NCBI RefSeq assembly: GCF_001618955.1
Contig: NZ_LVYV01000023.1
Location: forward strand, 248,001 to 312,000
DNA: 64,000 nucleotides
Direction of reading: 5' to 3'
DNA from: Tardiphaga robiniae
Lineage (GTDB): Bacteria; Pseudomonadota; Alphaproteobacteria; Rhizobiales; Xanthobacteraceae
Shown piece by piece: positions 26,280 to 48,384 of this stretch; the stretch's first letter is position 1, and the number at the start of each line of letters is the position of its first letter. The notes under the pieces are model-generated. The model was not told the DNA's origin, did no database searches, and was given only the letters and a program-made list of their open reading frames with translations. The position numbers were made by a program, and so were the translations under genes.

Positions 26280-28805
26280 ATGCCAATGTTGAATCGTCTT
26301 CCCGTTCCATTGCTGATCGCGGGCGTCGGCTTGCTCATCCTGCCGCCGATCTTGCTGGCGCTCGGATTGACCGTGACGTCGGCGACGGAGATCGTCGTCT
26401 TTGCACTGGCCTGCATGGCCCTGAATATCCTGGTGGGGCACACCGGTCTCGTCTCGTTCGGTCATGGCGCCTGGTTCGGCCTTGCGGCCTATGCTGCAGC
26501 GCTGATCCAGCGCAACTGGATGCCGAATTCATTCGTCGGGCCGACGCTGCTTGCGCTTGTCGTGGTGGCCATCACGGCGGCTGCCTTCGGCTACCTGATC
26601 CTGCGCCGCCGCGGCGTGTATTTCTCGCTGCTGACGCTGGCGCTCGCGGCCATGCTCTACAGCGTCTCGTTCCGCTGGACCGACGTCACCGGTGGCGAGA
26701 ACGGCCTTGGCGGCATCACCCGGCCGGCACTGCTTGGCTTCGACCTCGATGCAGGTACGACTTATTATTGGTTCGTGGCGCTGATCGCGTTTCTCGTGCT
26801 GATCCTGCTGTGGCGCTTCCACAATTCCACGGTCGGTTCGGTGCTGGTGGCGATCCGCGAGAACGAACAGCGCGCGCGCTTCCTCGGCTATCCCACCAAT
26901 CGCTACAAGCTCGCCGCCTTCGTGCTGTCGGCTACCATCACCGGGCTGGCCGGCATTCTGCTGCTCTACAAGAACCGTATGACGTCGGCGGATCCCATTT
27001 CGGTGGCGTTCTCTGGCGAGCTTCTGGCCATGGTCGTGATCGGCGGCATGCGCAGTTTCCTCGGGCCGGCGCTCGGTGCGCTGTTTTTCATTCTTTTTCG
27101 TGAGTTTCTCGGCATCTATTCCGAGAACTGGTTGTTCTGGTTCGGTCTCGTTTTCGTTGGCTTCATCATCTTCTCGCCTACCGGCCTAATCGGTATGGGC
27201 GAGCGGCTGATCGCGCCATTCCGCAAGAAAGTGGAAGAAGACGCGGCAATGTCGGCGCGGCGCATCGAAGTGCTACCACTGCCGGAGTTTTTGCGACCGA
27301 AGTCGTCAGTCGACGGAGCGGTACTCGCTGCCAGCCATATCGTGAAAAGTTTCGGTGGCATCAAGGCCGTGCAGGGCGTCGATATCGCCATCGCCGATCG
27401 CACGCTGCATGCGCTGATCGGCCCGAACGGTGCCGGCAAGACCACGGCGTTCAATTTGCTGTCGGGTATGTACAAGCCGGATCAGGGAAGCGTGTCGCTG
27501 ATGGGCATGCCTATCGCCGGCCATACACCAGAAGATATTGCAAGCGCCGGCATTGGGCGTTCGTTCCAGATCACCAACCTGTTTCCTGCGCTCAGTGTTG
27601 GCGAAAATATCCGCCTCGCGGTGCAAGCCCGGCATCCGCGGCGCTTCGATCCCGTGACCAACGCGCTATCGATTAGCGCAATCAACGCGGAGACCGATGC
27701 GGTGATCCGCTATCTCGGCCTCGCTGGAATCGAGAAGGCAGAGGCAGGCATGCTGTCTTACGGCGGCCAACGCCTGCTCGACATGGGCGTCGCGCTGGCT
27801 ACAGCGCCGCGCGTCCTGTTGCTTGACGAACCGCTTGCAGGCCTCGCTGCTGCCGAACGTGAACGTATCGGTGCGATCATCAAGCGCATCTCGACCGATT
27901 TGCCGGTTCTGCTGGTCGAGCATGACATCGATCGGGTGTTCCAGCTGGCCGACCACGTCACCGTCATGAATGAGGGACGCGTATTGCTGGATGGCTCCGT
28001 CGAAGAGGCGCGCTCCAGCCCGAAGGTGCAGGAGGTCTATATCGGGTCGGGCACAACGGCTGTGGCTGCGCGTCCGCGCGAGACCGCAGCGGGGGCGAAG
28101 CCGCTGCTGACGGTGAAGAATGTTGATACGTTCTATGGCAAGAGCCATATTCTCAACGACGTCAATTTCACCCTGCACGAGAACGAGATCATCGCACTGC
28201 TCGGGCGCAATGGTGCGGGTAAGTCGACCTTGCTCAAGTCGTTGATCGGGATCGCGCCGGCATCGAATGGCTCTATTCAACTGGCAGGCAGCGAGTTGAT
28301 CGGCCTGTCGTCTGCGGAAGCCGCGCGACTCGGCATCGGTTACGTACCGCAGGGACGCGCCTTGTTCGCAGGCATGACCGTCGAGCAGAATCTCGAACTT
28401 GGTGGTCTCAAGCGGCAGACTGGCAATGGCGTGCATTGGACCCGCGAGCGCATCTACGACTATTTCCCGCGCATTCGTGAGCGTCTCGACAGCCCCGCCG
28501 ATTATCTGTCAGGCGGCGAGCAACAGATGGTGGCCGTGGCGCGTGCACTGTCGGGTGACGTCCGCGTCTTGTTGCTGGATGAGCCGTTCGAAGGATTGGC
28601 GCCCGCGGTCGTGGAGCAGTTGTTTGAAACCTTTGACCGGCTCCGCAAGGAAATTGCCATCATCATCGTCGACCATAATCTCGATCTGGCATTGGCTTTG
28701 TCCGATTCGACGGTGGCGCTGGAACGGGGCAAGGTAATTCATCAGGGACCGTCGAAGGCCCTGCGTGACGATCTCGATCTGCGCCGCAAGGTGCTGTGGC
28801 TGTGA
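26280..28805 (+). CDS. Triple-fusion ABC transporter protein: LivM permease + LivG ATPase + LivF ATPase
   Basis: 841 residues that combine three normally separate subunits. Residues 1-320 are a LivM permease with about ten membrane segments (LVGHTGLVSFGHGAWFGLAA; FSGELLAMVVIGGMRSFLGP). Residues 345-590 are LivG: Walker A GPNGAGKTT at about 381, SYGGQ signature, Walker B VLLLDEPLAGLA, and LVEHDIDRVF. Residues 605-841 are LivF: Walker A GRNGAGKST at about 642, LSGGEQQMVAVARAL, VLLLDEPFEGLAP and IIVDHNLDLA. Both ATPases look intact, so the fusion should work with LivH as a complete translocator. Linkers of 20-30 residues join the parts. An in-frame ATG at 26286 is possible. The gene follows livH by 4 bases. 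Confidence 0.93.
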   Translation: MPMLNRLPVPLLIAGVGLLILPPILLALGLTVTSATEIVVFALACMALNILVGHTGLVSFGHGAWFGLAAYAAALIQRNWMPNSFVGPTLLALVVVAITAAAFGYLILRRRGVYFSLLTLALAAMLYSVSFRWTDVTGGENGLGGITRPALLGFDLDAGTTYYWFVALIAFLVLILLWRFHNSTVGSVLVAIRENEQRARFLGYPTNRYKLAAFVLSATITGLAGILLLYKNRMTSADPISVAFSGELLAMVVIGGMRSFLGPALGALFFILFREFLGIYSENWLFWFGLVFVGFIIFSPTGLIGMGERLIAPFRKKVEEDAAMSARRIEVLPLPEFLRPKSSVDGAVLAASHIVKSFGGIKAVQGVDIAIADRTLHALIGPNGAGKTTAFNLLSGMYKPDQGSVSLMGMPIAGHTPEDIASAGIGRSFQITNLFPALSVGENIRLAVQARHPRRFDPVTNALSISAINAETDAVIRYLGLAGIEKAEAGMLSYGGQRLLDMGVALATAPRVLLLDEPLAGLAAAERERIGAIIKRISTDLPVLLVEHDIDRVFQLADHVTVMNEGRVLLDGSVEEARSSPKVQEVYIGSGTTAVAARPRETAAGAKPLLTVKNVDTFYGKSHILNDVNFTLHENEIIALLGRNGAGKSTLLKSLIGIAPASNGSIQLAGSELIGLSSAEAARLGIGYVPQGRALFAGMTVEQNLELGGLKRQTGNGVHWTRERIYDYFPRIRERLDSPADYLSGGEQQMVAVARALSGDVRVLLLDEPFEGLAPAVVEQLFETFDRLRKEIAIIIVDHNLDLALALSDSTVALERGKVIHQGPSKALRDDLDLRRKVLWL

Positions 28806-28813
28806 GAACAGAA

Positions 28814-29761
28814 ATGACAACAAACAATCGGCATGTTGCGATCGTAGGAGTTGGCTTGATTGGGCGGGCCTGGGCAACGATCTTCGCCCGCGCAGGTTGG
28901 ACCGTGCGATTGACCGATCCGCATCGCCCGACATTGGACGCTGCGCCTCAGCTTATTCGCGATGAGCTGCATGCGCTGGCCCGCCATGGGCTTGCCAATG
29001 ACCCCGACGGGGCTGCCGGACGCATCTCGATTGCAGGGAGCTTGGCCGATGCTGTGAAGGACGTTGCCTTCGTGCAGGAGAACGGCCCCGAAAATGTCGA
29101 TCAGAAGATCGCCATCTTCGCCGAACTCGACCGTCTCGCGCCTCCGGATGCACTGCTCGCGTCATCCACCTCGGCCATCGTCGCCTCTCGCTTCACGGAA
29201 ACGCTTCCGGGGCGCGCGCGATGTCTTGTCGGTCATCCCGTCAATCCGCCACATCTGGTGCCGCTGGTCGAACTATGCGGCGCACCCTGGACCTCGCAGG
29301 AGACCATCGACCGCGCGCGTGAGATCTATCGCGAGATTGGGCAGGTACCGGTCACCGTCAACCGCGAGATCAACGGTTTTATCCTCAATCGGCTGCAGGG
29401 CGCTTTGCTCGCCGAGGCGTTTCGTCTTGTCGGCGAAGGTTATGTCTCTGCGGAGGATCTCGACCACACCGTGAAGGACGGCCTTGGCCTGCGCTGGTCG
29501 TTCCTCGGCCCGCTGGAAACCATCGAGCTCAATGCGCCTGGCGGCATCCCCGATTACTGCGCGCGCTATACCGGCTTCTACAAGGAGCTGGCTGCCGCAT
29601 CGGCAGGGCCCGAGGTCTATCAGAGCCCGAATGTCGATCGGGTAATAGCGGCCTGGCCGCATCAGCCGTCGCCCGACCGGATTGCCGCGCTGACGCAGCA
29701 ACGCAACGAACGCCTCGCTGCGCTGGCGGCCCACAAGGCTGCGCAGGGCAGCAAATCTTGA
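28814..29761 (+). CDS. 3-hydroxyacyl-CoA dehydrogenase family (carnitine dehydrogenase / gulonate dehydrogenase type)
   Basis: 315 residues, NAD-dependent oxidation of a 3-hydroxy acid or its CoA ester to the 3-keto form. VAIVGVGLIGRAWATIFARA is the dinucleotide fold, GHPVNPPHLVPLVEL contains the catalytic His, and INGFILNRLQGALLAEAFRL is the helical C-domain signature. Single-domain length and the SSTSAI pattern fit the lambda-crystallin/L-carnitine dehydrogenase branch. I place the start at ATG 28814, eight bases after the fusion gene; a GTG at 28796 would overlap it. The BKACE gene is next, giving a neat two-step logic: oxidise a 3-hydroxy acid, then cleave the 3-keto acid. In carnitine degraders this pair yields betaine and acetoacetyl-CoA, but the substrate here is not established. 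Confidence 0.88.
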   Translation: MTTNNRHVAIVGVGLIGRAWATIFARAGWTVRLTDPHRPTLDAAPQLIRDELHALARHGLANDPDGAAGRISIAGSLADAVKDVAFVQENGPENVDQKIAIFAELDRLAPPDALLASSTSAIVASRFTETLPGRARCLVGHPVNPPHLVPLVELCGAPWTSQETIDRAREIYREIGQVPVTVNREINGFILNRLQGALLAEAFRLVGEGYVSAEDLDHTVKDGLGLRWSFLGPLETIELNAPGGIPDYCARYTGFYKELAAASAGPEVYQSPNVDRVIAAWPHQPSPDRIAALTQQRNERLAALAAHKAAQGSKS

Positions 29762-29797
29762 ACCGCACGATCTCTCAACAGCAAGACGGAGACTGAC

Positions 29798-30721
29798 ATG
29801 AGCCGCAAAGTCATTATCACCTGTGCCGTGACGGGTGCGATCCATACGCCCTCGATGTCCAAGGCATTACCGGTCACACCGCAGGAAATTGCCGACGCTG
29901 CAGTCGACGCGGCGGAAGCGGGTGCCGCTATCGTGCATCTGCACGCACGCAACCCGAAGACCGGGCAACCCGATCAAAGCCCCGAAGCTTTTGCGCCATT
30001 TCTGAAGATCATCAAGCAGCGCACTAATGCGGTGATCAATCTGACCACCGGCGGTGCGCCCACCATGACGGTGGATGAACGCGTACGGCCCGCCGCGGTC
30101 TACAAGCCGGAAGTCGCCTCGCTCAACATGGGCTCAATGAATTTTGGCTTCTTCGGCATGCTCAACCGCTTCAAAAAGTTCGAACATGACTGGGAATTGA
30201 AGCACCTGCAGAACAAGGACATCGTGTTCCGCAACACGTTTCAGGACATCGAATATGTGCTGAAGACGCTGGCCGAGACCGGCACGCGCTTCGAGTTCGA
30301 ATGCTACGACACGGCGCATCTCTATAACTTGGCCTACTTCCTCGAACAGGGGCTGGTAAAGCCGCCGCTGTTCATCCAGACGGTGTTCGGCCTGCAGGGC
30401 GGCACCGGGGCGCACCCCGAGGATGTGCTGCACATGAAGCGAACGGCAGATCGGCTGTTCGGCGACAAGTATGTCTGGTCGGTGCTTGGCGCCGGTCGCA
30501 ATCAACTGCCGATCGCGGCGATGGCTGCGGCGATGGGAGGCAATATCCGTGTCGGTCTGGAAGACTCGCTGTGGGCGGCGCCAGGTCGCATGGCCTCCTC
30601 GAATGCCGAGCAAGTCACCCTCGCGCGCAAGATCGTCGAAGGCCTCGGGCTTGAAATTGCAACCCCGGATGAAGCGCGCGAGATGCTTGATCTGAAGGGT
30701 GGGGACAAGCTGGAGGTTTAA
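29798..30721 (+). CDS. Beta-keto acid cleavage enzyme (BKACE, DUF849)
   Basis: 307 residues. BKACE enzymes take a 3-keto acid and acetyl-CoA and give acetoacetate plus a new acyl-CoA (or acetoacetyl-CoA plus a carboxylate), using a zinc in a TIM barrel. Zn-ligand pair His47 and His49 (IVHLHARN), Glu255 with Asp256 (VGLEDSLW), and the opening KVIITCAVTGAIHTPSMSKA are all present. GGAG is near the ATG at 29798, 36 bases after the dehydrogenase gene. Family members differ in side-chain specificity; KAH, dehydrocarnitine and 3-oxoadipate are among the reported types. A second, distinct BKACE lies at 34366-35259. Confidence 0.93.
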   Translation: MSRKVIITCAVTGAIHTPSMSKALPVTPQEIADAAVDAAEAGAAIVHLHARNPKTGQPDQSPEAFAPFLKIIKQRTNAVINLTTGGAPTMTVDERVRPAAVYKPEVASLNMGSMNFGFFGMLNRFKKFEHDWELKHLQNKDIVFRNTFQDIEYVLKTLAETGTRFEFECYDTAHLYNLAYFLEQGLVKPPLFIQTVFGLQGGTGAHPEDVLHMKRTADRLFGDKYVWSVLGAGRNQLPIAAMAAAMGGNIRVGLEDSLWAAPGRMASSNAEQVTLARKIVEGLGLEIATPDEAREMLDLKGGDKLEV

Positions 30722-31574: not shown

Positions 31575-32594
31575 TTATCGCGAGATCCTTGGTGGCTGTG
31601 TCGAGCGGCGCACGACGAGCAGGGGCGCTGTGACGACATAAGGCGCATCGCCGCGGACGCCTTCGATCAGGTCGAGCAGGAGTTGGCCGGTCTGTTCACC
31701 CATCTCGCGGTGGCTGATGCGGATCGTGGATAGCGGGGGATCCACCAGATCCACCAGCGGCATGTCGTTGTGACCGATCACTGACAGATCTTCCGGACAT
31801 CGCCGGCCCGTTTCGCGCAACGCTTCATAGATGCCGAGCGCGAGGAGATCGTTGGCTGCGACGATGGCGGTGGCCTCAGGCTGTCGTGCGAGCAGTCTGA
31901 GTGCGGCGGCGCGTCCTGCCTCGCGCGTGAATGCTTCAGCTTCTTCGATATCATTGTCGGCCGGCGTGAAACCCGCTTCGTGCATTGCCTCCACGAAACC
32001 GCGGCGGCGGAGTGATCCGGTCGATAGCATTTGCGGGCCGGCGAGGTGGAGGATGTGGCGATGCCCAAGTTCGAGAAGATGCGCAACCGCGAGCCGCATG
32101 CCGGCCACATCGTCCGAGACCACCGAAGGCACACGCGCCTCAGCTTCCGCGCGATTGACAAGCACGACAGGGACTTTCCAACTCAGACAACGCTCGATCG
32201 AATTATCCTTGAGCGCGACATTCGCCAGCACGAGGCCGTCCACGCGGCGCGCCACGAGCCGTTGAACGATGTCGTCGGCGCCCGTCCGTTGCGGTTGCGG
32301 GTCGGCGACGATCAACGCGTAGCCGCGCGCCGATAGCACGTCTTCGAGACCGCCGATGATCGGCGAGAAGACCGGGTTCGCGATGTCCGGGACGATGATG
32401 CCGACCATGTTCGAACGGCCGCTGCGCAGACTCGCGGCCACCGTGTCCGGGCGGTAACCCAGCCGCTCCGCTGCTTCCAGAATCCGGCGCACGACTGGCT
32501 CGCCTATCCGTCCGCGGCGGGCAGGGTCGAGCGCGCGCGAAACGGTGGATGGGTGCACCCCCACTTCGCGCGCAACGTCTTTGATTGTCGTCAT
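31575..32594 (-). CDS. LacI-family transcriptional regulator (first)
   Basis: 339 residues: N-terminal LacI helix-turn-helix with hinge (TTIKDVAREVGVHPSTVSRA, RGRIGEPVVRRILEAAERLG) and a periplasmic-binding-like ligand domain (VGIIVPDIANPVFSPIIGGL; DDVAGMRLAVAHLLELGHR; SVIGHNDMPLVDLVDPPLS). The ATG at 32594 fits the family; the one 45 bases upstream does not. It faces the intradiol dioxygenase operon across 116 bases that contain two perfect palindromes, the expected operators, so it is probably that operon's repressor. Its effector may be the substrate or an intermediate; most LacI ligands are sugars, but aromatic-pathway members exist. Confidence 0.92.
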   Translation of the reverse strand: MTTIKDVAREVGVHPSTVSRALDPARRGRIGEPVVRRILEAAERLGYRPDTVAASLRSGRSNMVGIIVPDIANPVFSPIIGGLEDVLSARGYALIVADPQPQRTGADDIVQRLVARRVDGLVLANVALKDNSIERCLSWKVPVVLVNRAEAEARVPSVVSDDVAGMRLAVAHLLELGHRHILHLAGPQMLSTGSLRRRGFVEAMHEAGFTPADNDIEEAEAFTREAGRAAALRLLARQPEATAIVAANDLLALGIYEALRETGRRCPEDLSVIGHNDMPLVDLVDPPLSTIRISHREMGEQTGQLLLDLIEGVRGDAPYVVTAPLLVVRRSTQPPRISR

Positions 32595-32635
32595 CCCTGC
32601 CACGTTCTCCAAGCTATCTGTTGCAGTTGACTTGC

Positions 32636-32668
32636 GCAATCGATTGCATTAATCGTGCAATCGATTGC
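32636..32668. promoter_or_regulatory. Two perfect 12-bp palindromes, probable LacI operators
   Basis: GCAATCGATTGC occurs at 32636-32647 and again at 32657-32668. Each is a perfect palindrome with a central CG, as LacI-family sites have, and their centres are 21 bases apart, two turns of the helix. They lie 42 bases before the LacI start and 43 before the dioxygenase start, so one repressor pair could close both promoters. Confidence 0.8.
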
Positions 32669-32710
32669 GCAGCGTGGACAGCCAAAAAATCGCAATGTGA
32701 GGGAGTGTCG

Positions 32711-33601
32711 ATGATCATTACGCGTCAGGAGGACGTGACCGACGTTGTGCTTGCCGCGATGAGCGCTGCACCCAATGAGCGGCTGCGCACGGTCATGACC
32801 GCCTTCGTTCGTCATCTGCACGAATTTGCCCGCGAGGTCCGGCTGACCGAGGCGGAATTCGAGTTTGCCATCGATTTCCTGAACCGCATCGGCCAGGCGA
32901 CCAACGACAGCCATAACGAGGGCGTGTTGTTCAGCGATGCAGTCGGGCTCTCGACGTTGGTTTGCCTGTTGAACAACGGCCAGGACGGTGCGAGCGAAAC
33001 CGCCGCAGCGTTACTCGGGCCGTTCTGGCGGGCGAACGCTCCGCGCGTGGAGAATGGTGCCTCGATCTTGCGTTCGCCGACGCCCGGTGCACCGCTGTTC
33101 GTCGATTGCCGCATCACCGACGCGCTGGGAGCGCCGCTCTCGGGTGTCAGCGTTGATGTCTGGCAGGCGTCGCCATCGGGAATGTACGAAAACCAGGACG
33201 CCGGTCAGGCTGACATGAATTTGCGCGGCGTGTTTGAGACGGATGCGAACGGCCGCTTCGCCTTCCGCTCGGTCAAGCCTGCTGGCTATCCGGTGCCGAC
33301 CCATGGTCCGACCGGGGAGATGCTGGCCGCGCAGCGTCGGCATCCGTTCCGGCCGGCGCATCTGCATGTGCTTGCCTTCAAGCCAGGCTTCAAGACGCTG
33401 ATCACGCAGATATTTGTCGATGACGACGAGCATCTGGAGAGCGACGTCGTATTCGGCGTGACGCGCGCGCTGATCGGCGATTTCCGCAAGGGCGAAGGAG
33501 CGCCGCCCGCGCCGGACGTCGCTGGCGAATGGTTCAGCCTCAACTACACTTTCGTGATGGAGCCCGGCGAAGCCGTGCTTCCACAACCTCCCATCAAGTG
33601 A
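32711..33601 (+). CDS. Intradiol ring-cleavage dioxygenase (hydroxyquinol/catechol 1,2-dioxygenase type), first
   Basis: 296 residues; Fe(III) enzyme that cleaves a catechol-type ring between the two hydroxyls. An N-terminal helical dimer domain (Dioxygenase_N: NERLRTVMTAFVRHLHEFAR) precedes the beta-sandwich. Iron ligands are visible as Tyr159 (GMYENQ), Tyr193 (AGYPVPTHGP), and His217/His219 (RPAHLHV). Length and N-domain match hydroxyquinol 1,2-dioxygenases, which give maleylacetate. GAGGGA is 5 bases before the ATG at 32711. First gene of an operon with an SDR, BKACE, MDR reductase, cupin and TTT binding protein. A second enzyme of the same type is at 42555; the two differ clearly and probably have different substrates. 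Confidence 0.92.
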   Translation: MIITRQEDVTDVVLAAMSAAPNERLRTVMTAFVRHLHEFAREVRLTEAEFEFAIDFLNRIGQATNDSHNEGVLFSDAVGLSTLVCLLNNGQDGASETAAALLGPFWRANAPRVENGASILRSPTPGAPLFVDCRITDALGAPLSGVSVDVWQASPSGMYENQDAGQADMNLRGVFETDANGRFAFRSVKPAGYPVPTHGPTGEMLAAQRRHPFRPAHLHVLAFKPGFKTLITQIFVDDDEHLESDVVFGVTRALIGDFRKGEGAPPAPDVAGEWFSLNYTFVMEPGEAVLPQPPIK

Positions 33602-33608
33602 GCTGTCG

Positions 33609-34355
33609 ATGTCCGATATTCTTGCGAACAAGGTAACCGTGGTGATCGGCGGTTCGGGCGGCATCGGCGCCGCGGCCGCGCAAGCCTTGGCCGCCGAAGG
33701 CGCCCGTGTCGTCGTGACCTGGCGCTCCGGCGAGACAGCCGCCAACGCGTTGCTGGCCGGCCTTCCGGGCGAGGGCCATCTCGCCAGACGCGCGGTGGTT
33801 GAAGATAGCGCAACGCTGACGGCGCTTGCCGGCGAGGTGGAGCGAGCGTTCGGTCGCTGCGATATTCTCGTCAACACCGCGGGCTACACGAAGCCGATCC
33901 CGATCGGCGATCTCGATGCGCTGACCGACGAGTTTATCGACGACATGTTCAAGGTGAACTGGCGCGGCCAGTTCGCGGCCATCCGTGCTTTTGCGCCGCT
34001 GCTCAAGGCGAGCGGCGACGGGCTCATCGTCAACGTCTCCTCGATTGCGGGGCTGAATGGCGTCGGCTCCAATCTGGCTTATGCGGCGATCAAGGCGGGT
34101 ATCGACACCATGACCAAGTCGCTTGCGCTGGCGCTGGCGCCGGCCGTGCGGGTGATGGCGGTTTCGCCGGGCGTGGTGGCCACCGACTTTGTGCCGGGCC
34201 GCGACGCGGCCGCGCTCGAAAAGGTCGCGGGGACCATCCCGCTCAAGCGTGTTGCGACGGCCGAGGATGTCGGCCGTGCGATCGCGGCCTGCGCCACCCA
34301 CCTGACCTATTCCACCGGCTCGCTGATCGTCGTCGACGGCGGCCGGGCGTTGTAA
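33609..34355 (+). CDS. Short-chain dehydrogenase/reductase (SDR)
   Basis: 248 residues. VVIGGSGGIGAAAAQALAAE is the cofactor loop, TWRSGE suggests NADP preference (Arg after the second strand), ILVNTAG is the NNAG-type motif, and NVSSIAG with NLAYAAIKAG gives the catalytic Ser-Tyr-Lys. It starts 7 bases after the dioxygenase stop. In this setting it could reduce maleylacetate or another keto intermediate, or oxidise a ring substituent or dihydrodiol before cleavage. No sequence feature decides which. Confidence 0.9.
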   Translation: MSDILANKVTVVIGGSGGIGAAAAQALAAEGARVVVTWRSGETAANALLAGLPGEGHLARRAVVEDSATLTALAGEVERAFGRCDILVNTAGYTKPIPIGDLDALTDEFIDDMFKVNWRGQFAAIRAFAPLLKASGDGLIVNVSSIAGLNGVGSNLAYAAIKAGIDTMTKSLALALAPAVRVMAVSPGVVATDFVPGRDAAALEKVAGTIPLKRVATAEDVGRAIAACATHLTYSTGSLIVVDGGRAL

Positions 34356-34365
34356 GGAGAGATTG

Positions 34366-35259
34366 ATGCGCCCGATGCTCGACAAGATCGTTATCACTTG
34401 CGCCGTCACCGGCAATCTGACGCGGCCGGACCAGACCCCGCATCTGCCGATCACGCCGGAAGAAATCGCCGACGCCTGCCTCGGTGCCGCAGAAGCCGGC
34501 GCGGCAGTTGCGCATATCCATGTGCGCGAGCCCGGCACCGGCGCACCGTCGATGAAGCTCGAATATTATCAGGACGTCGTCGGACGCATTCGCGCGCGCA
34601 ATCGCAACCTGATCCTGAACATCACCACCGGTCCCGGCGGTCGCTTCGTACCTTCGCAGGACGATCCCAAGGTCGCCGCCGCTGGCACCACGCTGATGAA
34701 CCCGGAAGAACGCGTCGCCCATATCACGGCGCTGAAGCCCGATATCTGCACGCTCGATCTCAACACCATGAATTCCGGCGGGCAGGTGGTGATCAACACG
34801 CCCGGCAATGTGCGCCGCATGGCGAAGGTCATCCGCGAGGCCGGCGTGAAACCCGAGATCGAACTGTTCGATTCCGGCGATATCGCACTTCTGCACGATC
34901 TCCTCGCCGATGGTACGCTCAGCGGCCCGGCGCTCACCTCCTTCGTGATGGGGGTGAAATACGGCTTCCAGCCGTCGCCGGAAACGGTGCTGTATGCACG
35001 CGGTCTGCTGCCGAGGGATGCGCATTTCACGGCCATCGGCATCGGCCGCTCCACATTTCCCATGGTGGCGCAATCGGTGCTCGCCGGCGGTCATGCCCGC
35101 ACCGGTCTGGAAGATGCGGTGATGCTCGGCCGCGGCGTACTGGCGCCGTCGAACGCCGTGATGGTGGACAAGGCACGCCGCATCATTGAGGAACTCGGCG
35201 CGCAGATCGCGACGCCTGCTGAAGCACGCGCACTGTTCGATTTGCCGGGCGCCGCATAA
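34366..35259 (+). CDS. Beta-keto acid cleavage enzyme (BKACE, DUF849), second
   Basis: 297 residues, same family as the protein at 29798 but clearly different. KIVITCAVTGNLTRPDQTPH opens it, His50 and His52 (VAHIHVREP) are the Zn ligands, TTGPGG is the substrate loop and TGLEDAVMLGRGV has the Glu-Asp pair. ATG at 34366 with AAGGAGAGA upstream. It sits between an SDR and an MDR reductase behind a ring-cleavage dioxygenase. Ring cleavage of hydroxyquinol and reduction give 3-oxoadipate, a beta-keto acid, so this enzyme could split it with acetyl-CoA to acetoacetate and succinyl-CoA, replacing the usual CoA-transferase and thiolase. This is inference from order and family chemistry. Confidence 0.92.
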   Translation: MRPMLDKIVITCAVTGNLTRPDQTPHLPITPEEIADACLGAAEAGAAVAHIHVREPGTGAPSMKLEYYQDVVGRIRARNRNLILNITTGPGGRFVPSQDDPKVAAAGTTLMNPEERVAHITALKPDICTLDLNTMNSGGQVVINTPGNVRRMAKVIREAGVKPEIELFDSGDIALLHDLLADGTLSGPALTSFVMGVKYGFQPSPETVLYARGLLPRDAHFTAIGIGRSTFPMVAQSVLAGGHARTGLEDAVMLGRGVLAPSNAVMVDKARRIIEELGAQIATPAEARALFDLPGAA

Positions 35260-35279
35260 CACAGCATTCGAGGACTGAA

Positions 35280-36299
35280 ATGACTGCAGCCGCCAAGACT
35301 TCCTCCAGCGTCACCGCAAACTGCCTGCGGGTCGCCGTCAAGGCTGATCGCATCGAGAATGTGGCGCTCGGCATCGAGCAACGCACACTCGCCTGCGCGA
35401 GGCCAGGCGATGCGCTGGTCGAGATAAAGGCCGCCGCGATCAATCCGTCGGACGCCAAGGCGACGCTCGGTCTGATGCCGCATGCCGTATTTCCGCGTAC
35501 GCCTGGTCGTGACTTCGCCGGCGTCGTGATCGACGGGCCGGCCGACCTGATCGGCAAGGAAGTGTTCGGCTCGTCCGGCCAACTCGGGATCGGCCGCGAC
35601 GGCACCCATGCCACGCATCTGGTGGTCGAAGCGTCTGCGCTGGTCGAGAAGCCGGCAAACATCAGCCTCGCGGAGGCGGCTGGCATCGGTGTGCCCTTTG
35701 TCACCGCGCAGGAAGGCTTTCGTCGCAGCGGCATGCCGAAACCCGGCGAGACGGTGTTGATTCTTGGCCTCAACGGCAAGGTCGGTCAGGCGGCGACGCA
35801 GATCGCGTCATGGCAGGGCGCCCGCGTGATCGGCGTCGTCCGCAAGGACGAGCTATATGCTGGCCATGCCCATGGCGAGGTGACCGTCATCGATTCCAGC
35901 CGCAATGACGTCGCTGCGACGGTGCGCGAACTCACCGGCGGCAAGGGCGCGGACCTCGTCTACAATACCGTCGGCGAGCCCTATTACGACGCCGGCACGA
36001 AATCGCTCGCGCATCTCGGCCGCCAGATCTTCATTGCCTCCACCAAGGCCACCGTGCCGTTCGACATCTTCGCCTTCTATCGCGGCAAGCACACCTTCTT
36101 CGGTGTCGACTCGCTGTCGCTGTCATCGCCGGAAGCCGGCGAGATCCTGCGTGAATTGGTGCCGGGTTTCGCCAGCGGCGCGTTGAAGCCGTTTCCGATC
36201 GAGCCGGACGCGATCTACCCGCTGCAGCGCGCTGCAGAGGCTTATGTCGCCGTGCTCGGCTCCTCGCGCGACCGTCTCGTTTTTCAGCCGAACGGGTGA
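35280..36299 (+). CDS. MDR-family NADPH-dependent oxidoreductase (quinone oxidoreductase type)
   Basis: 339 residues, zinc-free medium-chain reductase. VEIKAAAINPSDAKATLGL and PRTPGRDFAGVVIDGP are the N-terminal catalytic domain motifs; ETVLILGLNGKVGQAATQIA is the cofactor loop; TGGKGADLVYNTVGEPYYD is the typical C-lobe. No zinc-binding Cys set is present. It starts 20 bases after the BKACE gene. Such enzymes reduce activated C=C or C=O bonds, so in this operon it might replace maleylacetate reductase or act on a lactone or enone intermediate. Substrate unknown. Confidence 0.88.
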   Translation: MTAAAKTSSSVTANCLRVAVKADRIENVALGIEQRTLACARPGDALVEIKAAAINPSDAKATLGLMPHAVFPRTPGRDFAGVVIDGPADLIGKEVFGSSGQLGIGRDGTHATHLVVEASALVEKPANISLAEAAGIGVPFVTAQEGFRRSGMPKPGETVLILGLNGKVGQAATQIASWQGARVIGVVRKDELYAGHAHGEVTVIDSSRNDVAATVRELTGGKGADLVYNTVGEPYYDAGTKSLAHLGRQIFIASTKATVPFDIFAFYRGKHTFFGVDSLSLSSPEAGEILRELVPGFASGALKPFPIEPDAIYPLQRAAEAYVAVLGSSRDRLVFQPNG

Positions 36300-36303
36300 A
36301 GCC

Positions 36304-36654
36304 ATGCATGTCGTCCGCCTGAACGATGCCCCGCGCTACGAAGCCCCTGGCCACAATGACATGCGGATGTTCCGCTTGCAGGGCCGCGACGCCGGGCCGG
36401 GCGATGTGATGTGGCTCGGCATGAGCCAGATTCTGCCGGGCGGCGGCCTCACGCCCTCGGCCTCGCCGGAGGAGAAGTTCTATGTCGTCCTCGAAGGCGA
36501 GGTGACCTTCGAGACGCCGGATGGCATCGCCACCCTGGGCACCTGGGATTCCTGCCGCATCGCGCCCAACGAGACGCGCGCCTTGCGCAACGAGACGAAA
36601 CGACCGGCGGTGGTGTTGCTTGCAATGCCGCTGCCCAACACCGCCAGAGGCTGA
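36304..36654 (+). CDS. Cupin-domain protein lacking metal-binding histidines
   Basis: 116 residues, one cupin barrel. Cupin motif 1 region reads LTPSASPEEKFYVVLEGEVT and motif 2 region IAPNETRALRNET. In metal-binding cupins motif 1 has H-x-H and motif 2 a further His; here the H-x-H positions are Ser/Pro and the second His is replaced, so metal binding is doubtful. Glycines for the fold are kept. ATG at 36304, 4 bases after the MDR gene. It may be a ligand-binding or isomerase-like helper for the operon; function not known. Confidence 0.85.
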   Translation: MHVVRLNDAPRYEAPGHNDMRMFRLQGRDAGPGDVMWLGMSQILPGGGLTPSASPEEKFYVVLEGEVTFETPDGIATLGTWDSCRIAPNETRALRNETKRPAVVLLAMPLPNTARG

Positions 36655-36688
36655 AAGCCCGGCACTTGGTTTTCTCAGGGAGAAAAAG

Positions 36689-37657
36689 ATGGATCGCCGA
36701 CAATTCATGATCGGCTCCGGCCTCGCCGCGACTGCGGCACTGATGGGCAGCGGAGCCATTGCGCAGACTTATCCGAACCAGCTCGTGCGTATTATCGTGC
36801 CGTTTTCGGGTGGCAGCCTCACCGACATCCTTGCCCGTTCGGTGGCCGAGAAGCTTGCTGCGAAGTGGAAGCAGCAGGTCATCGTCGAGAACAGGCCCGG
36901 CATCGCCGGTGTCAGCAGTGTCGCCAAAGGCCCGACCGATGGCTCGCAGATCATGCTGACCTCGAACGGGCATAGCGTGATCGGCGTGGTCAACAAGAAC
37001 CTCAACTTCGATCCGATCAAGGATTTCGCTGCGATCAGCCGTGTCGGATCGACGCCGTCCATCCTGATCGTGCCGCCGGATGCGCCGTTCAAGACGCTGG
37101 CCGAATTGATCGCCGCGGCAAAGGCCAAGCCGGATTCGCTGAGCTACAGCTCTGCCGGCGTCGGTAGTTCCACCGGTATCGCCGCCGAACTGTTCAGGCA
37201 TCTCACGCAGACCAAGATGGTGCTGATCCCGCATCGCGGACTGCCGGAATCCCAGATCAGCATCATGCGCGGCGACACCTCGGTTGCCTTCACTTTCTTC
37301 GGCGTCGGTGGCGACCTGATCCAGTCGGGAAAGTTGCGCGCACTGGCAGTCACCGGCAAGAGCCGCATGGCGCAACTGCCTGATGTGCCGACCTTCGCCG
37401 AGGCAGGGCTCCCCGAATTCACCTACGATAGCTGGTTCGGCATGCTCGCCGCCGCGGCAGTGCCGAAACCCATCGTCAGCCAGATCGCGCGCGATCTCGC
37501 CGAGGCGCTCAGCGATCCGGCCCTGATCAAGCAGTTCGCCGCGCAGGGCGCCGACATCGCCAGCTCGACGCCGGAAGCGTTCGAGGCCGAGTTGCGCAGC
37601 GATGCGGAGCGTTATGGCAAGCTCGTCGCGATGTCGACGGACGGAGCGGCCAAGTAA
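36689..37657 (+). CDS. TTT-family (Bug/TctC-like) periplasmic binding protein
   Basis: 322 residues with a Tat-like leader (MDRRQFMIGSGLAATAAL, then GAIAQ), YPNQLVRIIVPFSGG (TctC start signature) and ISIMRGDTSVAFTFFGVGGD in the middle. AGGGAG lies 7-9 bases before the ATG at 36689. Last gene of the dioxygenase/BKACE operon, so it probably binds the carboxylated aromatic or dicarboxylic acid that feeds the pathway, working with TctAB-type membrane parts encoded elsewhere. It is distinct from the binding protein at 8869. A hairpin ends the operon just after it. Confidence 0.9.
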   Translation: MDRRQFMIGSGLAATAALMGSGAIAQTYPNQLVRIIVPFSGGSLTDILARSVAEKLAAKWKQQVIVENRPGIAGVSSVAKGPTDGSQIMLTSNGHSVIGVVNKNLNFDPIKDFAAISRVGSTPSILIVPPDAPFKTLAELIAAAKAKPDSLSYSSAGVGSSTGIAAELFRHLTQTKMVLIPHRGLPESQISIMRGDTSVAFTFFGVGGDLIQSGKLRALAVTGKSRMAQLPDVPTFAEAGLPEFTYDSWFGMLAAAAVPKPIVSQIARDLAEALSDPALIKQFAAQGADIASSTPEAFEAELRSDAERYGKLVAMSTDGAAK

Positions 37658-37844: not shown

Positions 37845-38996
37845 TTAGCTTTCCCGGTGCCGTATTCTGACTTCTCTTTTGGCCGCGTCAGAAAAATCTG
37901 ACGAACGTGTCTTGGTCGGCAGCTTGATCGCGGCGACAGAATCCCGCGCGAGCAGAACCGGCTTCAGCACGATCCGATCGTTTTGAACCGGCGTTCCCTT
38001 AATCATCGCAATAAGGATGTGAGACGCCTGCGTTCCCAGCTCCGCAGTTGGCGTACTGATGGTCGTCAGTGCCGGTGCTATCGCATCCATGAACAGCATG
38101 TCGTTCATGCCGACCAGCGAGATGCTGCCGGGACATGAAATGCCCCTGTTTCTCAGGTGCCGAAGGCAGCCTACGGCCAGCATGTCGTTGCCGGCCACAA
38201 TCGCTGTAATATTGGGATTCTCCGCCAGCAAACGCTCGCAAGCGAACTCGCCTTCCTCGACCGTAAAGGCCTCACCGAAGACGGCAGTGGGCGTAACTCC
38301 GTCTTGAGCCAAGACTTTGCAAGCGCGCCGAAAGCCGCGATAGCGGTGGTAACCCGTCGACACATTTTGCGGGCCGCCGACATGAGCAATTTGCCTGTGC
38401 CCACACTCGGCGAGATGATGAACCGCCAGTTCCATTGCCTTCGCGTCGTCGACCCGGACGCTCGGAATGAATTCGCTTTCAGGATCGCGAAACACCGCGA
38501 CGACTGGAATATTCGCCTCGACGCAGGCTGCGATGCCGGGATCGTTTCGCTCGAAGGTCGCGACGATCAGCCCCTCGACGCCTTGCTGGATGAAACGATC
38601 GATCAGCGCGGCCTGCCTGAGCGGATGGTTGTCGGTATTGCCGACGATGGTGACGTATCCAATCTCGGCGAACCGGTCCTCAATCGCCCGCACTATGGGG
38701 GGATGGACGGGGTCACCAAGGTTCGAAACAATAACGCCGACGGTGCGAGATCGCTGGGTCCGAAGCGCCGATGCCATGGCGTTGGCCCGATATCCCAGCT
38801 TCTTCGCGCAAGCTTCGACGCGCTCGATCATTTCTGGGGAGATCAGGTGGCGCTTCTCGGGATTGAGCCCGCGCGACACCGTTGACCAATGGACGCCAGC
38901 ACACTTCGCGACATCAATGATTGTCTTACGCGACGACCGCTCCTGAAGCGCGGGTGACGTCTTCTTGGTGTTCTTGGTTTTTTTGGGCATCGCCAT
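37845..38996 (-). CDS. LacI-family transcriptional regulator (second)
   Basis: 383 residues, longer than usual owing to a lysine-rich N-terminal extension of about 23 residues (MPKKTKNTKKTSPALQERSS) ahead of the helix-turn-helix (TIIDVAKCAGVHWSTVSRGL) and a basic tail. The ligand domain is standard (VGVIVSNLGDPVHPPIVRAI; DDAKAMELAVHHLAECGHRQ; SLVGMNDMLFMDAIAPALT). It could start at ATG 38996 or 38990. It faces the maleylacetate reductase operon over 185 bases that include a repeated operator-like sequence, so it is the likely repressor. It is only distantly similar to the first LacI protein at 31575, so the two modules answer to different signals. Confidence 0.92.
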   Translation of the reverse strand: MAMPKKTKNTKKTSPALQERSSRKTIIDVAKCAGVHWSTVSRGLNPEKRHLISPEMIERVEACAKKLGYRANAMASALRTQRSRTVGVIVSNLGDPVHPPIVRAIEDRFAEIGYVTIVGNTDNHPLRQAALIDRFIQQGVEGLIVATFERNDPGIAACVEANIPVVAVFRDPESEFIPSVRVDDAKAMELAVHHLAECGHRQIAHVGGPQNVSTGYHRYRGFRRACKVLAQDGVTPTAVFGEAFTVEEGEFACERLLAENPNITAIVAGNDMLAVGCLRHLRNRGISCPGSISLVGMNDMLFMDAIAPALTTISTPTAELGTQASHILIAMIKGTPVQNDRIVLKPVLLARDSVAAIKLPTKTRSSDFSDAAKREVRIRHRES

Positions 38997-39062
38997 CCAG
39001 CCTGCTCGCGCGCGTCGTCGTATCCGCTAACGATCACGTGAGAATGCCTCATCTTGCACAAA

Positions 39063-39101
39063 TTGACAAACGTGTGCAGAGTTTCTTGACAAACGTGTGC
39101 A
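39063..39101. promoter_or_regulatory. Tandem 16-bp repeats, probable operators of the second LacI regulator
   Basis: TTGACAAACGTGTGCA occurs identically at 39063-39078 and 39086-39101, a 23-base period. Each copy contains CAAAC/GTGTG, a near palindrome around a central CG. They begin 66 bases upstream of the LacI start and end 80 bases before the maleylacetate reductase start. TTGACA may double as a -35 box. Confidence 0.7.
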
Positions 39102-39181
39102 CGGGAATGATGGTAGCGAAAATCCGCTGCATGCCTTGGTGCAATGCAGCGCAAACGCGCTAACGGCGTCGACGATCAGGG

Positions 39182-40267
39182 ATGGAAATGGTGGAGAGCT
39201 TCGTCTATCAGGCGGCGCCCATGCGAGTCGTCTTCGGCTCGGGACGGCTGGCAGATCTGGCCGCCGAGCTCGACCGACTCGGCATTAAGCGCGCGCTCGT
39301 TCTGACGACAGTCCAACAGAAATCTCACGGTGAGCAGATTGCCGCGCTGATCGGTAACCGCGCGGCTGGTGTCCATGCGGGCGCGGTGATGCATACGCCG
39401 GTTGATGTGACCGAAGTTGCGATGCAGCAGGTCATGGCCCTGCAGGCCGACGGGATCGTCGCGGTGGGCGGTGGTTCGACCATCGGGCTCGGCAAGGCGA
39501 TCGCGCTGCGGACCGACCTGCCGCAGATCGTCGTACCGACCAGCTATGCCGGGTCCGAGATGACGCCGATCCTGGGTGAGACCCGCGAGGGACTGAAAAC
39601 CACGCAATCGAGCCCGAAGATACTCCCCGAAACAGTCATCTACGACGTCGACCTGACGCGTACATTGCCGCCTGCGTTTGCGGTGACGTCGGGCATCAAT
39701 GCAATCGCTCACGCTGTCGAAGCGCTCTATGCCCGTGATGCCAATCCGGTCGTGTCGTTGATGGCGGAAGAGGGCATCCGCCTGTTCGCCGGCGCGCTGC
39801 CGAAGCTTGCGGCTGGCGAGGACGATGCGGCGGCACGCGACGACGCACTGCGCGGTGCGTGGCTGTGCGGCGCCTGTCTCGGCGCTGTCGGCATGGGACT
39901 TCACCACAAGCTCTGCCATACGCTGGGCGGCACGTTCAATCTGCCGCATGCTGAAACCCACACGGTGATCCTGCCGCATGCGATGGCCTATAATGCTCCC
40001 GCAGTGCCGGTCGCGGCGGCTCGCGTCGCGCGCGCACTTGGCGCCGGACAGGCCGCGCAGGGACTGTTCGATCTCACGCAGGGCCTCGGCGCCAAAGTCG
40101 CGCTGCGCGATCTGGGAATGCCGAAGGACGGCATCGAACGCGCCGCCGACCTGGCCGTCAGCAATGCCTATTGGAATCCGCGGCCTCTGGAACGCGATGC
40201 CATCCGCGATCTGATCGCGCGGGCCTGGGCGGGCGATCCTCCGGTCATTGCGGAGGCGTTGCGATGA
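39182..40267 (+). CDS. Maleylacetate reductase (iron-type alcohol dehydrogenase family)
   Basis: 361 residues, usual length. Reduces maleylacetate to 3-oxoadipate with NAD(P)H in hydroxyquinol and chloroaromatic breakdown. The start MRVVFGSGRLADLAAELDRL, GIVAVGGGSTIGLGKAIAL (dinucleotide loop), PTSYAGSEMTPILG and HHKLCHTLGGTFNLPHAETH are typical of MacA/TftE/PcpE-type enzymes, a branch of Fe-ADHs that works without bound metal. First gene of the second ring-cleavage operon; its TGA overlaps the next ATG. With the dioxygenase at 42555 it gives a hydroxyquinol to 3-oxoadipate route. Confident family call; no standard symbol fits with certainty. Confidence 0.92.
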   Translation: MEMVESFVYQAAPMRVVFGSGRLADLAAELDRLGIKRALVLTTVQQKSHGEQIAALIGNRAAGVHAGAVMHTPVDVTEVAMQQVMALQADGIVAVGGGSTIGLGKAIALRTDLPQIVVPTSYAGSEMTPILGETREGLKTTQSSPKILPETVIYDVDLTRTLPPAFAVTSGINAIAHAVEALYARDANPVVSLMAEEGIRLFAGALPKLAAGEDDAAARDDALRGAWLCGACLGAVGMGLHHKLCHTLGGTFNLPHAETHTVILPHAMAYNAPAVPVAAARVARALGAGQAAQGLFDLTQGLGAKVALRDLGMPKDGIERAADLAVSNAYWNPRPLERDAIRDLIARAWAGDPPVIAEALR

Positions 40268-41631
40268 CGGCGATGCGTACGCTCATCAAATCCGCCACCA
40301 TCCTGACCATGGACGACACGATCGGCGACCTCGCGCAGGCTGACCTGCTTGTTGATGGCGATCGCATCGTGGACATCCGGCCAGGCCTAGATGCCGCTGA
40401 TGCAGAGATCGTTGATGGTCGTGGCCGCATCGTCATTCCCGGCCTCGTCAACGCGCATATGCATACGTGGCAGACAGCCTTGCGCGGCTTCTCCGCGAAC
40501 TGGACGCTGCCTGAATATTTCCGCCGCATGCATGCGGGACTGGCCACGGTCTTCCGTCCCGAGGATATCCATATCGGCACGCTGATGGGCGCGCTGAACC
40601 AGATCAATTGCGGCACCACCACGCTGGTTGACTGGTGTCACAACAATCCAACGCCTGCGCACAGTGATAGCGCCGTCGCGGCTCTGAAAGAGAGCGGCAT
40701 CCGTGCCGCGTTCTTCCACGGCTCGCCGAAACCGGAGGCGGCGCCGGGGCAGCCACACTTCTCCGAGGTTCCGCATCCGCGCCATGAGGTCGAGCTCTTT
40801 CTGGCAGGCGCACTGTCCAACCGCAGCGACCGCGTCACGCTCGGGCTTGCGATTCTTGGCCCACATTATTCGACCATGGATGTTGCCATCCATGATTTCG
40901 AACTGGCGCGTGAGTTCGATCTGATTGCCTCGATGCATCAGGGCGGAGGCCCTGCCAAGACGCCGGGTGGCTGGGCGAGACTGATTGCAGCTGGTCTGGT
41001 CGGTCCCGGCATCAACATCGTGCACGGCAACGATCTTCCGGATGATCTGCTGCGTCAGCTTGTCGATCTCGGCGTGTCGTTCTCGGTCACGCCGGAAAAT
41101 GAAATGAATCAGGGCCACGGCTACCCGATTACCGGGCGGCTATTGAAGCTGGGATCGCGGCCATCGCTCGGGGTCGATCTGGAATCCGTGCTGCCCGGCG
41201 ACATGTTCAACGTTGGCCGCATCGCACTGTCGATGCAGCGCGCGCTGGACAATGCCGAGAGCCGGCAGGCCACGGGCGCCATTCCAGCGGCGACGACAAT
41301 CACGACACGCGAGGCTTTGCGCTGGATCACCATCGAGGGCGCCCGCATGCTCGGGCTTGAAAGCAGCATCGGCTCGCTCACACCGGGCAAGAAGGCGGAT
41401 CTGGTCGTCATCAACGCCACGGACCTTAACCTCTGGCCGGTCCATGACCCGGTTTCTACGGTCCTGATGCAGTCCAGCATCACCAATATCGAGGCGGTCA
41501 TGATCGACGGCATCTGGCGCAAGCGAGGCGGACGCCTGCTGGCGGAGAACCTCGACCACAAAAAGAATGAACTCGAGCGATCAGGCATGCGCATCGTCTC
41601 CGAGATCGAACGTCAGGAGAAAGCGGCATGA
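40264..41631 (+). CDS. Metal-dependent amidohydrolase (TrzN/AtzA, guanine-deaminase-like group)
   Basis: 455 residues, TIM-barrel amidohydrolase. Metal ligands are intact: His65 and His67 (NAHMHTW), His225 (MHQGGG), His254 (VHGND) and Asp305 (LGVDLES). Composite N-terminal and C-terminal small beta domain (IKSATILTMDDT; GSLTPGKKADLVVIN) is typical of triazine hydrolases, cytosine/guanine deaminases and related dechlorinases. It overlaps maleylacetate reductase by 4 bases at its start and the dehydrogenase by 4 at its end, so it is firmly part of the operon. It would remove an amino, halide or similar group, or open an N-heterocycle. No known hydroxyquinol pathway needs this step, so the real substrate is open. 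Confidence 0.9.
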   Translation: MTAMRTLIKSATILTMDDTIGDLAQADLLVDGDRIVDIRPGLDAADAEIVDGRGRIVIPGLVNAHMHTWQTALRGFSANWTLPEYFRRMHAGLATVFRPEDIHIGTLMGALNQINCGTTTLVDWCHNNPTPAHSDSAVAALKESGIRAAFFHGSPKPEAAPGQPHFSEVPHPRHEVELFLAGALSNRSDRVTLGLAILGPHYSTMDVAIHDFELAREFDLIASMHQGGGPAKTPGGWARLIAAGLVGPGINIVHGNDLPDDLLRQLVDLGVSFSVTPENEMNQGHGYPITGRLLKLGSRPSLGVDLESVLPGDMFNVGRIALSMQRALDNAESRQATGAIPAATTITTREALRWITIEGARMLGLESSIGSLTPGKKADLVVINATDLNLWPVHDPVSTVLMQSSITNIEAVMIDGIWRKRGGRLLAENLDHKKNELERSGMRIVSEIERQEKAA

Positions 41632-42545
41632 CAACCCCGTCGAGAGATCAAGCACAGGCCGTAGCCTGGATCGGTGTTGGCAAGATGGGCTTGCCTATCG
41701 CCGGCCGTATGGTGGACGCCGGTATTAGTGTCGCCGGTTACGACCCGGGCCAGCAGCGCATGGTGTTGGCACAGCAGCTTGGGCTTCAGACGGCCAACTC
41801 GGCCGCGGACGCCGCTGCAAACCACTCTATTATCTTTACCTCGCTGCCTGACGATGCTGCGCTGCGCTCCTTGGTGCTTGGGTCTGATGGTCTGCTGAAC
41901 AAGCTGCCACGCGGCACGATCCTGATCGAAACCAGCACAGTAAGCGCCGAAATATCGGCTGAAGTCGGCGTCGCGGCGGAGGCAACGGGTGTCGCCTATC
42001 TGCGCGCGCCGGTGTCCGGCAATGCAGCGATTGCGCATACCGGCGCGCTGACCTGCTTCGTGTCGGGGCCGCGCGACGCGTTCGATGCGGTGCAGTCGCT
42101 GCTGGCGACGTTCACGCGCGCGCAAACCTATCTCGGCGTGGCTGAAGAGGCGCGATTTGCCAAGCTCGCGGTCAACCTGATGATCGCGGTGTCCGCGGGA
42201 ATGATGGCCGAAAGCCTCGCGCTGGCTCGCAAGGGCGGAATCTCCTGGCAGGATATCCTCAAGGTCCTGGACGACAGCGCGGTCGCCTCGCCGATGGTCA
42301 AGTACAAGACGCCGCCACTGGCCACGCGCAACTTCGAGTCCACTTTCTCGTGCCGGCAGATGGCCAAGGATCTCGATCTAATCATCGGCGCTGGTCATCA
42401 CGTCGGCGTGCCGCTGCAACTCGCAGCGCAGGTGCGAGAAATCTACGGATCCCTCGTTGCACAGGGAGATGGCGAATCCGACTTCATCGCCACCGTGCGC
42501 CACGTCGAGCGACTGTCGGGTCTCGGCGAGCCGAAGCTTGGGTGA
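41628..42545 (+). CDS. Beta-hydroxyacid dehydrogenase family (3-hydroxyisobutyrate dehydrogenase-like)
   Basis: 305 residues. NAD(P)-dependent dehydrogenase with VAWIGVGKMGLPIAGRMVDA as cofactor fold, APVSGNAAIAHTGAL as the substrate loop (the usual second Gly is Asn), KLAVNLMIAVSAGMMAESLA bearing the catalytic Lys, and KDLDLIIGAGHHVGVPLQL in the C-domain. It overlaps the amidohydrolase stop by four bases and precedes the dioxygenase by nine. It may oxidise a hydroxy acid or reduce a semialdehyde formed in the pathway. Specificity cannot be read from sequence. Confidence 0.9.
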   Translation: MTTPSRDQAQAVAWIGVGKMGLPIAGRMVDAGISVAGYDPGQQRMVLAQQLGLQTANSAADAAANHSIIFTSLPDDAALRSLVLGSDGLLNKLPRGTILIETSTVSAEISAEVGVAAEATGVAYLRAPVSGNAAIAHTGALTCFVSGPRDAFDAVQSLLATFTRAQTYLGVAEEARFAKLAVNLMIAVSAGMMAESLALARKGGISWQDILKVLDDSAVASPMVKYKTPPLATRNFESTFSCRQMAKDLDLIIGAGHHVGVPLQLAAQVREIYGSLVAQGDGESDFIATVRHVERLSGLGEPKLG

Positions 42546-42554
42546 GGAGGGGCC

Positions 42555-43439: not shown

Positions 43440-43498
43440 CTAACAATGCGCATTAAGGGCCGCAGAGCCTGAGCGCTGATATGGAAGGGGAGGATGCT

Positions 43499-48348: not shown

Positions 48349-48384
48349 GTGTTCGATCTCAAAAACAAAACGGAGGGAACGACT

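Follow-up and report, generated by a model that had tools for sequence, protein, structure and literature searches.

A LacI-linked ring-cleavage operon of Tardiphaga robiniae and the putative role of its BKACE in a hydroxyquinol-type lower pathway

Gene content and regulatory sites of the locus

A stretch of 64,000 nucleotides of the Tardiphaga robiniae genome (contig NZ_LVYV01000023.1, positions 248,001 to 312,000; hereafter the window, from a host genome of 6.36 Mb) carries an operon in which the gene of a beta-keto acid cleavage enzyme (BKACE) lies among genes for the cleavage of aromatic rings. An earlier note, made from the sequence alone, had pointed to the order dioxygenase, short-chain dehydrogenase/reductase (SDR), BKACE and medium-chain dehydrogenase/reductase (MDR), and both the reading frames (32711-36299) and the families of their products were confirmed by profile searches. 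A cupin gene and two operator-like sites, which that note had left out together with the PcaF and PcaI-type genes found elsewhere in the genome, complete the following list of features.

31575..32639, minus strand: LacI-family regulator gene, divergent from the operon (open reading frame call and profile search)
32635..32648, no strand: operator-like palindrome, one mismatch to TGCAATCGATTGCA (motif scan)
32656..32669, no strand: second operator-like palindrome, one mismatch to TGCAATCGATTGCA (motif scan)
32711..33601, plus strand: intradiol dioxygenase DO1, hydroxyquinol 1,2-dioxygenase group (PF04444 and PF00775; iron ligands)
33609..34355, plus strand: SDR (adh_short)
34363..35259, plus strand: BKACE, DUF849 (PF05853; zinc ligands H51, H53 and E250, with R246, D251, Arg94 and Phe169)
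35280..36299, plus strand: MDR oxidoreductase, proposed C=C reductase of the ring-cleavage product or of an unsaturated CoA ester (ADH_N and ADH_zinc_N)
36304..36654, plus strand: small cupin gene (PF07883 at 29.5 bits, cut-off 27.2)
36689..37657, plus strand: TctC-type periplasmic binding protein, for uptake (TctC profile)

The genes from DO1 through SDR, BKACE, MDR and cupin to TctC are separated by only 7, 7, 20, 4 and 34 bases. Residues of the BKACE are numbered here from the TTG at 34363; an alternative start is the ATG at 34366, with which the zinc histidines become His50 and His52 instead of His51 and His53. The true start of the LacI gene is probably a later methionine at about 32594. 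The BKACE stands in a ring-cleavage operon that has neither pcaI nor pcaF, and the earlier claim that the window holds no pcaI, pcaJ or pcaF stood for two of the three genes, since whole-genome profile searches placed no pcaI or pcaF match inside the 64-kb window, whereas pcaJ, for which no dedicated search was made, did not come up as a name when 15 proteins of the window were compared with Pfam or NCBIfam.

The exact core of the palindrome, GCAATCGATTGC, occurs in two copies between the LacI gene and DO1 and in no other place in the genome. Further sites of the regulator had been sought in order to trace upstream enzymes, and this genome-wide search, made for the exact core and not for degenerate sites, returned only those before DO1. 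Support from the window alone is weaker, because with up to two mismatches at least two matches were also found in 8 of 100 shuffled windows. Among relatives of the operon, whose sampling is described below, LacI genes recur beside it, and a motif with at most one mismatch to TGCAATCGATTGCA is present in 54 of 103 loci and lies upstream of DO1 in 47 of the 77 loci with a linked dioxygenase. The same motif precedes transporter genes adjoining a LacI gene in six other loci (L053-L056, L071 and L072), and the gene of an ABC binding protein in L152. In L052, L113, L074 and others, the surroundings of the operon include an L-PSP (RidA) family gene that adjoins a sugar-type ABC transporter.

Conservation of the gene order among relatives

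Loci were gathered by their similarity to the window BKACE, one search retaining the best 80 out of 548 or more relatives, which weights the sample toward close kin; 108 loci (L046-L153) less five duplicates gave 103 distinct ones. The closest named relative at the locus is Tardiphaga robiniae, with a BKACE 99% identical. A dioxygenase lies just upstream of the BKACE in 77 of the 103 loci, and in 72 it is accompanied by both SDR and MDR, 56 of these having the cupin as well, so that the search of other genomes for the same gene order, which the earlier note had asked for, found that order to be conserved. An MDR lies downstream in 75 of the 77 dioxygenase-linked loci, 62 of the 103 loci have a cupin-like gene after the MDR, and some relatives have a TctC gene in the neighbourhood of the operon. 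Three loci (L086, L132 and L138) have dioxygenase and MDR without the SDR, a minimal unit of dioxygenase, BKACE and MDR, and two have dioxygenase and SDR without an MDR match, one of which, L149, ends after the BKACE. Given that the SDR is missing from 3 of 77 dioxygenase-linked loci, it is dispensable for the unit, and the earlier inclusion of this gene in the arrangement holds for the 72 loci but not for these three; an upstream or auxiliary role is proposed for it.

Dioxygenase-linked loci span Hyphomicrobiales, Rhodospirillales, Roseomonas, Variovorax and Caballeronia, the last without an MDR match. In a quick tree, well supported branches require at least five changes of the dioxygenase link, which points to an old link that has not always been kept. 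The order dioxygenase, SDR, BKACE and MDR is not due to chance. As observations beside this, the operon also occurs, with a BKACE 92% identical, in a metagenome-assembled genome labelled as a cyanobacterium (Kaiparowitsia, L079), whose contig may be alphaproteobacterial and wrongly binned, and three successive amidohydrolase genes lie upstream of the ring-cleavage genes in L047, L048 and L086.

Predicted functions and rival explanations

DO1 is 38-42% identical to 1tmx, to 3n9t and to the second dioxygenase of the window, DO2. Its iron ligands Y159, Y193, H217 and H219 are present in all 79 aligned sequences (the window sequence included and duplicate loci retained), and so is D76, in an alignment that has no catechol enzyme as control. 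This residue corresponds to Asp83 of 1tmx, which we take to be a mark of hydroxyquinol enzymes, and all three PF04444 proteins of the host genome carry it. The hydroxyquinol type of ring cleavage assumed in the earlier note is in line with these results, by which DO1 is a probable member of the hydroxyquinol dioxygenase group, with different residues next to the Asp.

The BKACE passes the PF05853 profile with 320.1 bits against a cut-off of 24.8, and its zinc ligands H51, H53 and E250 as well as R246, D251 and R94 are kept in all 103 loci. A structure model (mean pLDDT 91.9) found 3c6c as the best match in a fold search (TM 0.93), a likeness that concerns the fold only; BsfD, an enzyme of flavophos biosynthesis to which we return below, was not among the 50 fold matches listed. 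In NF053568, the family of 3-oxoadipate:acetyl-CoA acetyltransferases, all 12 members aligned have an Arg matching R94 and a Phe matching F169. BKACEs beside a carnitine 3-dehydrogenase (L154, L156 and L158) have Asp at position 94 and Phe at position 169, and a BKACE has been reported to convert dehydrocarnitine in the carnitine 3-dehydrogenase route, in the part of that report drawn on here (PMC12482172). Asp is also found at position 94 in L155, which lies beside a BCCT transporter, and in L157, both at most presumptive carnitine enzymes, and 3c6c has Phe there. These sequences are most simply read as placing position 94 against the far end of the substrate, with Asp serving for a quaternary amine and Arg for a carboxylate or phosphonate. 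Dehydrocarnitine as the substrate of the window BKACE was rejected on this difference between Asp and Arg, and the substrate reads as a dicarboxylic beta-keto acid, either 3-oxoadipate or a substituted form.

Two further BKACEs belong to the same genome. One lies in the window at 29798-30721 (within 28796-30721), scores 537.7 bits with NF053538 (3,5-dioxohexanoate type) against a cut-off of 430, and comes after a 3-hydroxyacyl-CoA dehydrogenase-like gene over the cut-off of NF004783; the other is L003. A profile search found no NF053568 member in the host genome.

The cleavage product of the hydroxyquinol ring is a beta-keto acid. We propose that the operon, under LacI control, serves the lower part of the degradation of a hydroxyquinol-type aromatic. 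DO1 would open the ring to maleylacetate, plain or substituted, the MDR would reduce the double bond of this product to give 3-oxoadipate or a substituted 3-oxoadipate, and the BKACE, with Arg94 holding the far carboxylate of its substrate, would convert this dicarboxylic beta-keto acid and acetyl-CoA to acetoacetate and a succinyl-type CoA. In an alternative order the BKACE would act first and the MDR would then reduce an unsaturated CoA ester. To this explanation as a whole we assign a probability of about 0.55.

Several findings weigh against it. At 169.8 bits against a cut-off of 350 the BKACE falls outside the characterised 3-oxoadipate family and is for that reason not filed in NF053568, and the alignment of R94 with the Arg of that family spans a two-residue gap; the earlier assignment of 3-oxoadipate or an analogue to this enzyme keeps the zinc and catalytic residues and the aligned Arg on its side, but not family membership. 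Arg at position 94 is no mark of 3-oxoadipate alone, since L160 and L161 have it too, beside genes without relation to ring cleavage (MmgE/PrpD and a nitrilase-type gene in one, an NRPS/PKS in the other), which lowers our confidence in the proposed pathway and in its case of a plain substrate, and a member of the clade, L159, has Gly there. The closest relative by sequence in the PDB is BsfD (327.8 bits), which shares the Arg and the Phe, is reported not to cleave, and groups in the quick tree within a clade of 106 rows to which every one of the 103 loci belongs. The residues of DO1 next to the marker Asp differ from those of known hydroxyquinol dioxygenases, leaving room for a substituted substrate. 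PcaF is over its cut-off in 39 of the 43 operon genomes searched (from 45 loci given). Finally, 26 of the 103 close relatives have no dioxygenase match upstream, some of them lying in quite different clusters. Contig ends cut some of the 26, with 9 bases upstream in L121 and 409 in L090; where both flanks extend for 2.6 kb or more, which is so in 90 loci, the dioxygenase is present in 68 and absent from 22. Six of the 26 still have all of SDR, MDR and cupin. Some belong to a different kind of cluster, which includes an IclR-type regulator and TctC as well as an SDR of related sequence and an aldehyde dehydrogenase. A related SDR and an aldehyde dehydrogenase gene, without a dioxygenase match, accompany close BKACE relatives (72-76%) in L091, L121, L137 and L150, in part of which a DUF6282 and an HpcH/HpaI-type gene are also present.

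The host genome itself has a PcaF with 688 bits against a cut-off of 597 and three genes of the pcaI/scoA family over the cut-off, all outside the window. The replacement of PcaIJ and PcaF put forward in the earlier note is accordingly rejected at the level of the genome, given these genes and the frequency of PcaF in operon genomes. An NF053568 BKACE is found in 12 of 41 operon genomes, and a homologue of the window's maleylacetate-reductase-like protein in 29 of the 41. The other 12, nine of which are isolates, have no such homologue at E <= 1e-70, and it is in these that the MDR becomes the candidate reductase; it may thus stand in for the usual enzyme in some hosts. Bosea sp. OK403 has neither a PcaF over the cut-off nor the reductase homologue, and has an NF053568 BKACE.

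The operon's own reductase is an MDR and not of the Fe-containing alcohol dehydrogenase fold of Fe-type maleylacetate reductases. A protein of that fold, 62% identical to one annotated as maleylacetate reductase in L068, is encoded at 39182-40267 in the next cluster, where reductase, amidohydrolase and the hydroxyquinol-type DO2 span 39182-43439. The whole of this second LacI-headed cluster (37845-49356) holds the Fe-type reductase, a TRZ/ATZ-like amidohydrolase, a 6-phosphogluconate dehydrogenase-like protein, the hydroxyquinol-type dioxygenase, an FAD-linked oxidase and a sugar-type ABC transporter, and its part from reductase to oxidase lies downstream of the BKACE operon in Bradyrhizobium agreste (L128).

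Because the genome has a second hydroxyquinol-type dioxygenase, a maleylacetate-reductase-like gene and PcaF, we regard plain hydroxyquinol as no more likely a substrate than a substituted one. We tentatively suggest, as a possibility well short of even odds, that the operon is a dedicated mobile pathway for substituted hydroxyquinols, with a dioxygenase, an MDR ene-reductase, a separate Arg94-bearing clade of BKACE and a LacI regulator of its own, which would do without maleylacetate reductase as well as PcaIJ and PcaF and would end in acetoacetate and a substituted succinyl-CoA. The case in which the BKACE acts on plain 3-oxoadipate, making the operon a self-contained duplicate of the hydroxyquinol pathway that is passed around as a unit, is possible but doubtful. 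It agrees with the Arg and Phe common to the window BKACE and the 3-oxoadipate family, with the recurrence of a sodium:dicarboxylate symporter gene beside the operon (in 13 of the 109 sources clustered), and with the Tardiphaga-like genomes G397-G399, which also have a PcaF over the cut-off and a maleylacetate-reductase-like gene; yet such an operon would be superfluous beside DO2, the reductase-like gene and PcaF in the same genome, and DO1 differs in its pocket from the standard hydroxyquinol dioxygenases.

Departing further from the proposed pathway, the SDR might oxidise a beta-hydroxy acid to the beta-keto acid, so that the substrate of the BKACE would be non-aromatic and sugar-like and the dioxygenase would feed in only indirectly. 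SDR and BKACE do occur together in eight loci without a dioxygenase match (among them L090, with its short upstream end), the cluster with the IclR-type regulator likewise pairs the BKACE with a related SDR, a LacI regulator and sugar-type transporters are nearby, and deoxyribonate catabolism offers a precedent in the portion of the literature consulted (PMC6365646). Three loci, however, keep dioxygenase, BKACE and MDR without the SDR, and the dioxygenase link is the commoner one (77 of 103), which makes this explanation unlikely. A nitrogen-bearing product of ring opening, derived for instance from an aminocatechol and deaminated by RidA-type and amidohydrolase proteins before reduction and BKACE cleavage, is rather improbable; the L-PSP (RidA) gene f16 adjoins the sugar-type ABC transporter and is preceded by the operator motif in L113, and TRZ/ATZ-like amidohydrolases are found near the operon in L047, L048, L051, L066 and L086, but both kinds of gene lie outside the window operon, the amidohydrolase being in the next cluster, and neither is constant among relatives. 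Least probable of all is a BKACE that, like BsfD, transfers acetyl to a beta-keto acid with loss of CO2 without cleaving it, in an operon that makes or modifies a diketone, for although its nearest PDB relative shares with it R94, F169 instead of Tyr and the loop insertion, the loop insertion and Phe are common to the carnitine-operon BKACEs, the Phe recurs in all 12 aligned NF053568 members and was thus not accepted as a bar to cleavage by itself, and the operon neighbours have a catabolic appearance.

If the proposed LacI-controlled pathway is correct, many soil and plant-associated bacteria would share, for hydroxyquinol-type aromatics, the one-step BKACE ending so far proposed for the protocatechuate branch, a function would be given to a large unassigned clade of BKACE and to a group of MDR proteins, and position 94 (Arg, Asp or other) would become a testable marker of the far end of the BKACE substrate.

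Comparison with known systems

The classical hydroxyquinol pathway proceeds through an Fe-type maleylacetate reductase and then PcaIJF. It has a hydroxyquinol-type intradiol dioxygenase in common with the window operon, which differs in having an MDR in place of the Fe-type reductase and a BKACE in place of PcaIJ and PcaF.

Members of NF053568 resemble the window BKACE in fold, zinc site, the Arg that follows Gly-Gly in the loop after strand 3 and the Phe at 169, but do not have its longer loop. By sequence, 3chv, 3fa5 and 3no5 are solved members, and the family is represented in 74 of 297 genomes of the host's order. Among the 12 NF053568 loci examined, L166 and L173 adjoin pcaH and pcaG over the cut-off (L166 also a PcaB-like gene under it), L175 has pcaH over the cut-off nearby, and L170 and L174 have the same kind of pca neighbours as judged by eye. 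In L176 (1495-3216) a hydroxyquinol-type dioxygenase, 50% identical to DO2, lies directly upstream of an NF053568 BKACE (496.8 bits). No such neighbour was found within about 1.5 kb in L165, L167-L169, L171 and L172.

BsfD (PDB 9zsc) is described, in the sections used of a preprint, as transferring acetyl without cleavage to make a diketone phosphonate, with Phe166 where a Tyr is said to be present in all BKACEs, and with a special Arg91 (PMC12871164). It is the closest solved relative by sequence and has the Arg, the Phe and the loop insertion in common with the window BKACE; in contrast to the latter, which belongs to a catabolic-looking operon, it sits in a biosynthetic phosphonate cluster.

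The nearest precedent for the operon among the papers listed is in Methylobacterium, where pca operons carry a DUF849 gene, 'kce', and no pcaIJ or pcaF, and where the authors propose that beta-ketoadipate and acetyl-CoA give succinyl-CoA and acetoacetate (PMC8963497, PMC12379598). A plasmid with the Methylobacterium pca cluster allowed M. extorquens to grow on protocatechuate, and in the passages of these papers drawn on here the DUF849 gene was not tested alone (PMC8963497, PMC12379598). Both systems place a BKACE gene within a ring-cleavage operon. A description of a hydroxyquinol-type operon with an MDR, LacI control and this clade of BKACE was not found in the open-licence literature, so the earlier remark that no described pathway with this arrangement was known agrees with that search for the arrangement but not for the concept; taken together, the earlier idea appears partly supported by the sequences, being plausible in chemistry, overstated as a replacement and not new in concept. 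The Methylobacterium operon belongs to the protocatechuate branch, with a BKACE assigned to group G4 of Bastard 2014 in the text cited (PMC8963497, PMC12379598), whereas the window operon combines a dioxygenase of the hydroxyquinol type with an MDR and a LacI regulator. The principle is thus already known, and the new part is the hydroxyquinol-type operon with an MDR, LacI control and a different clade of BKACE.

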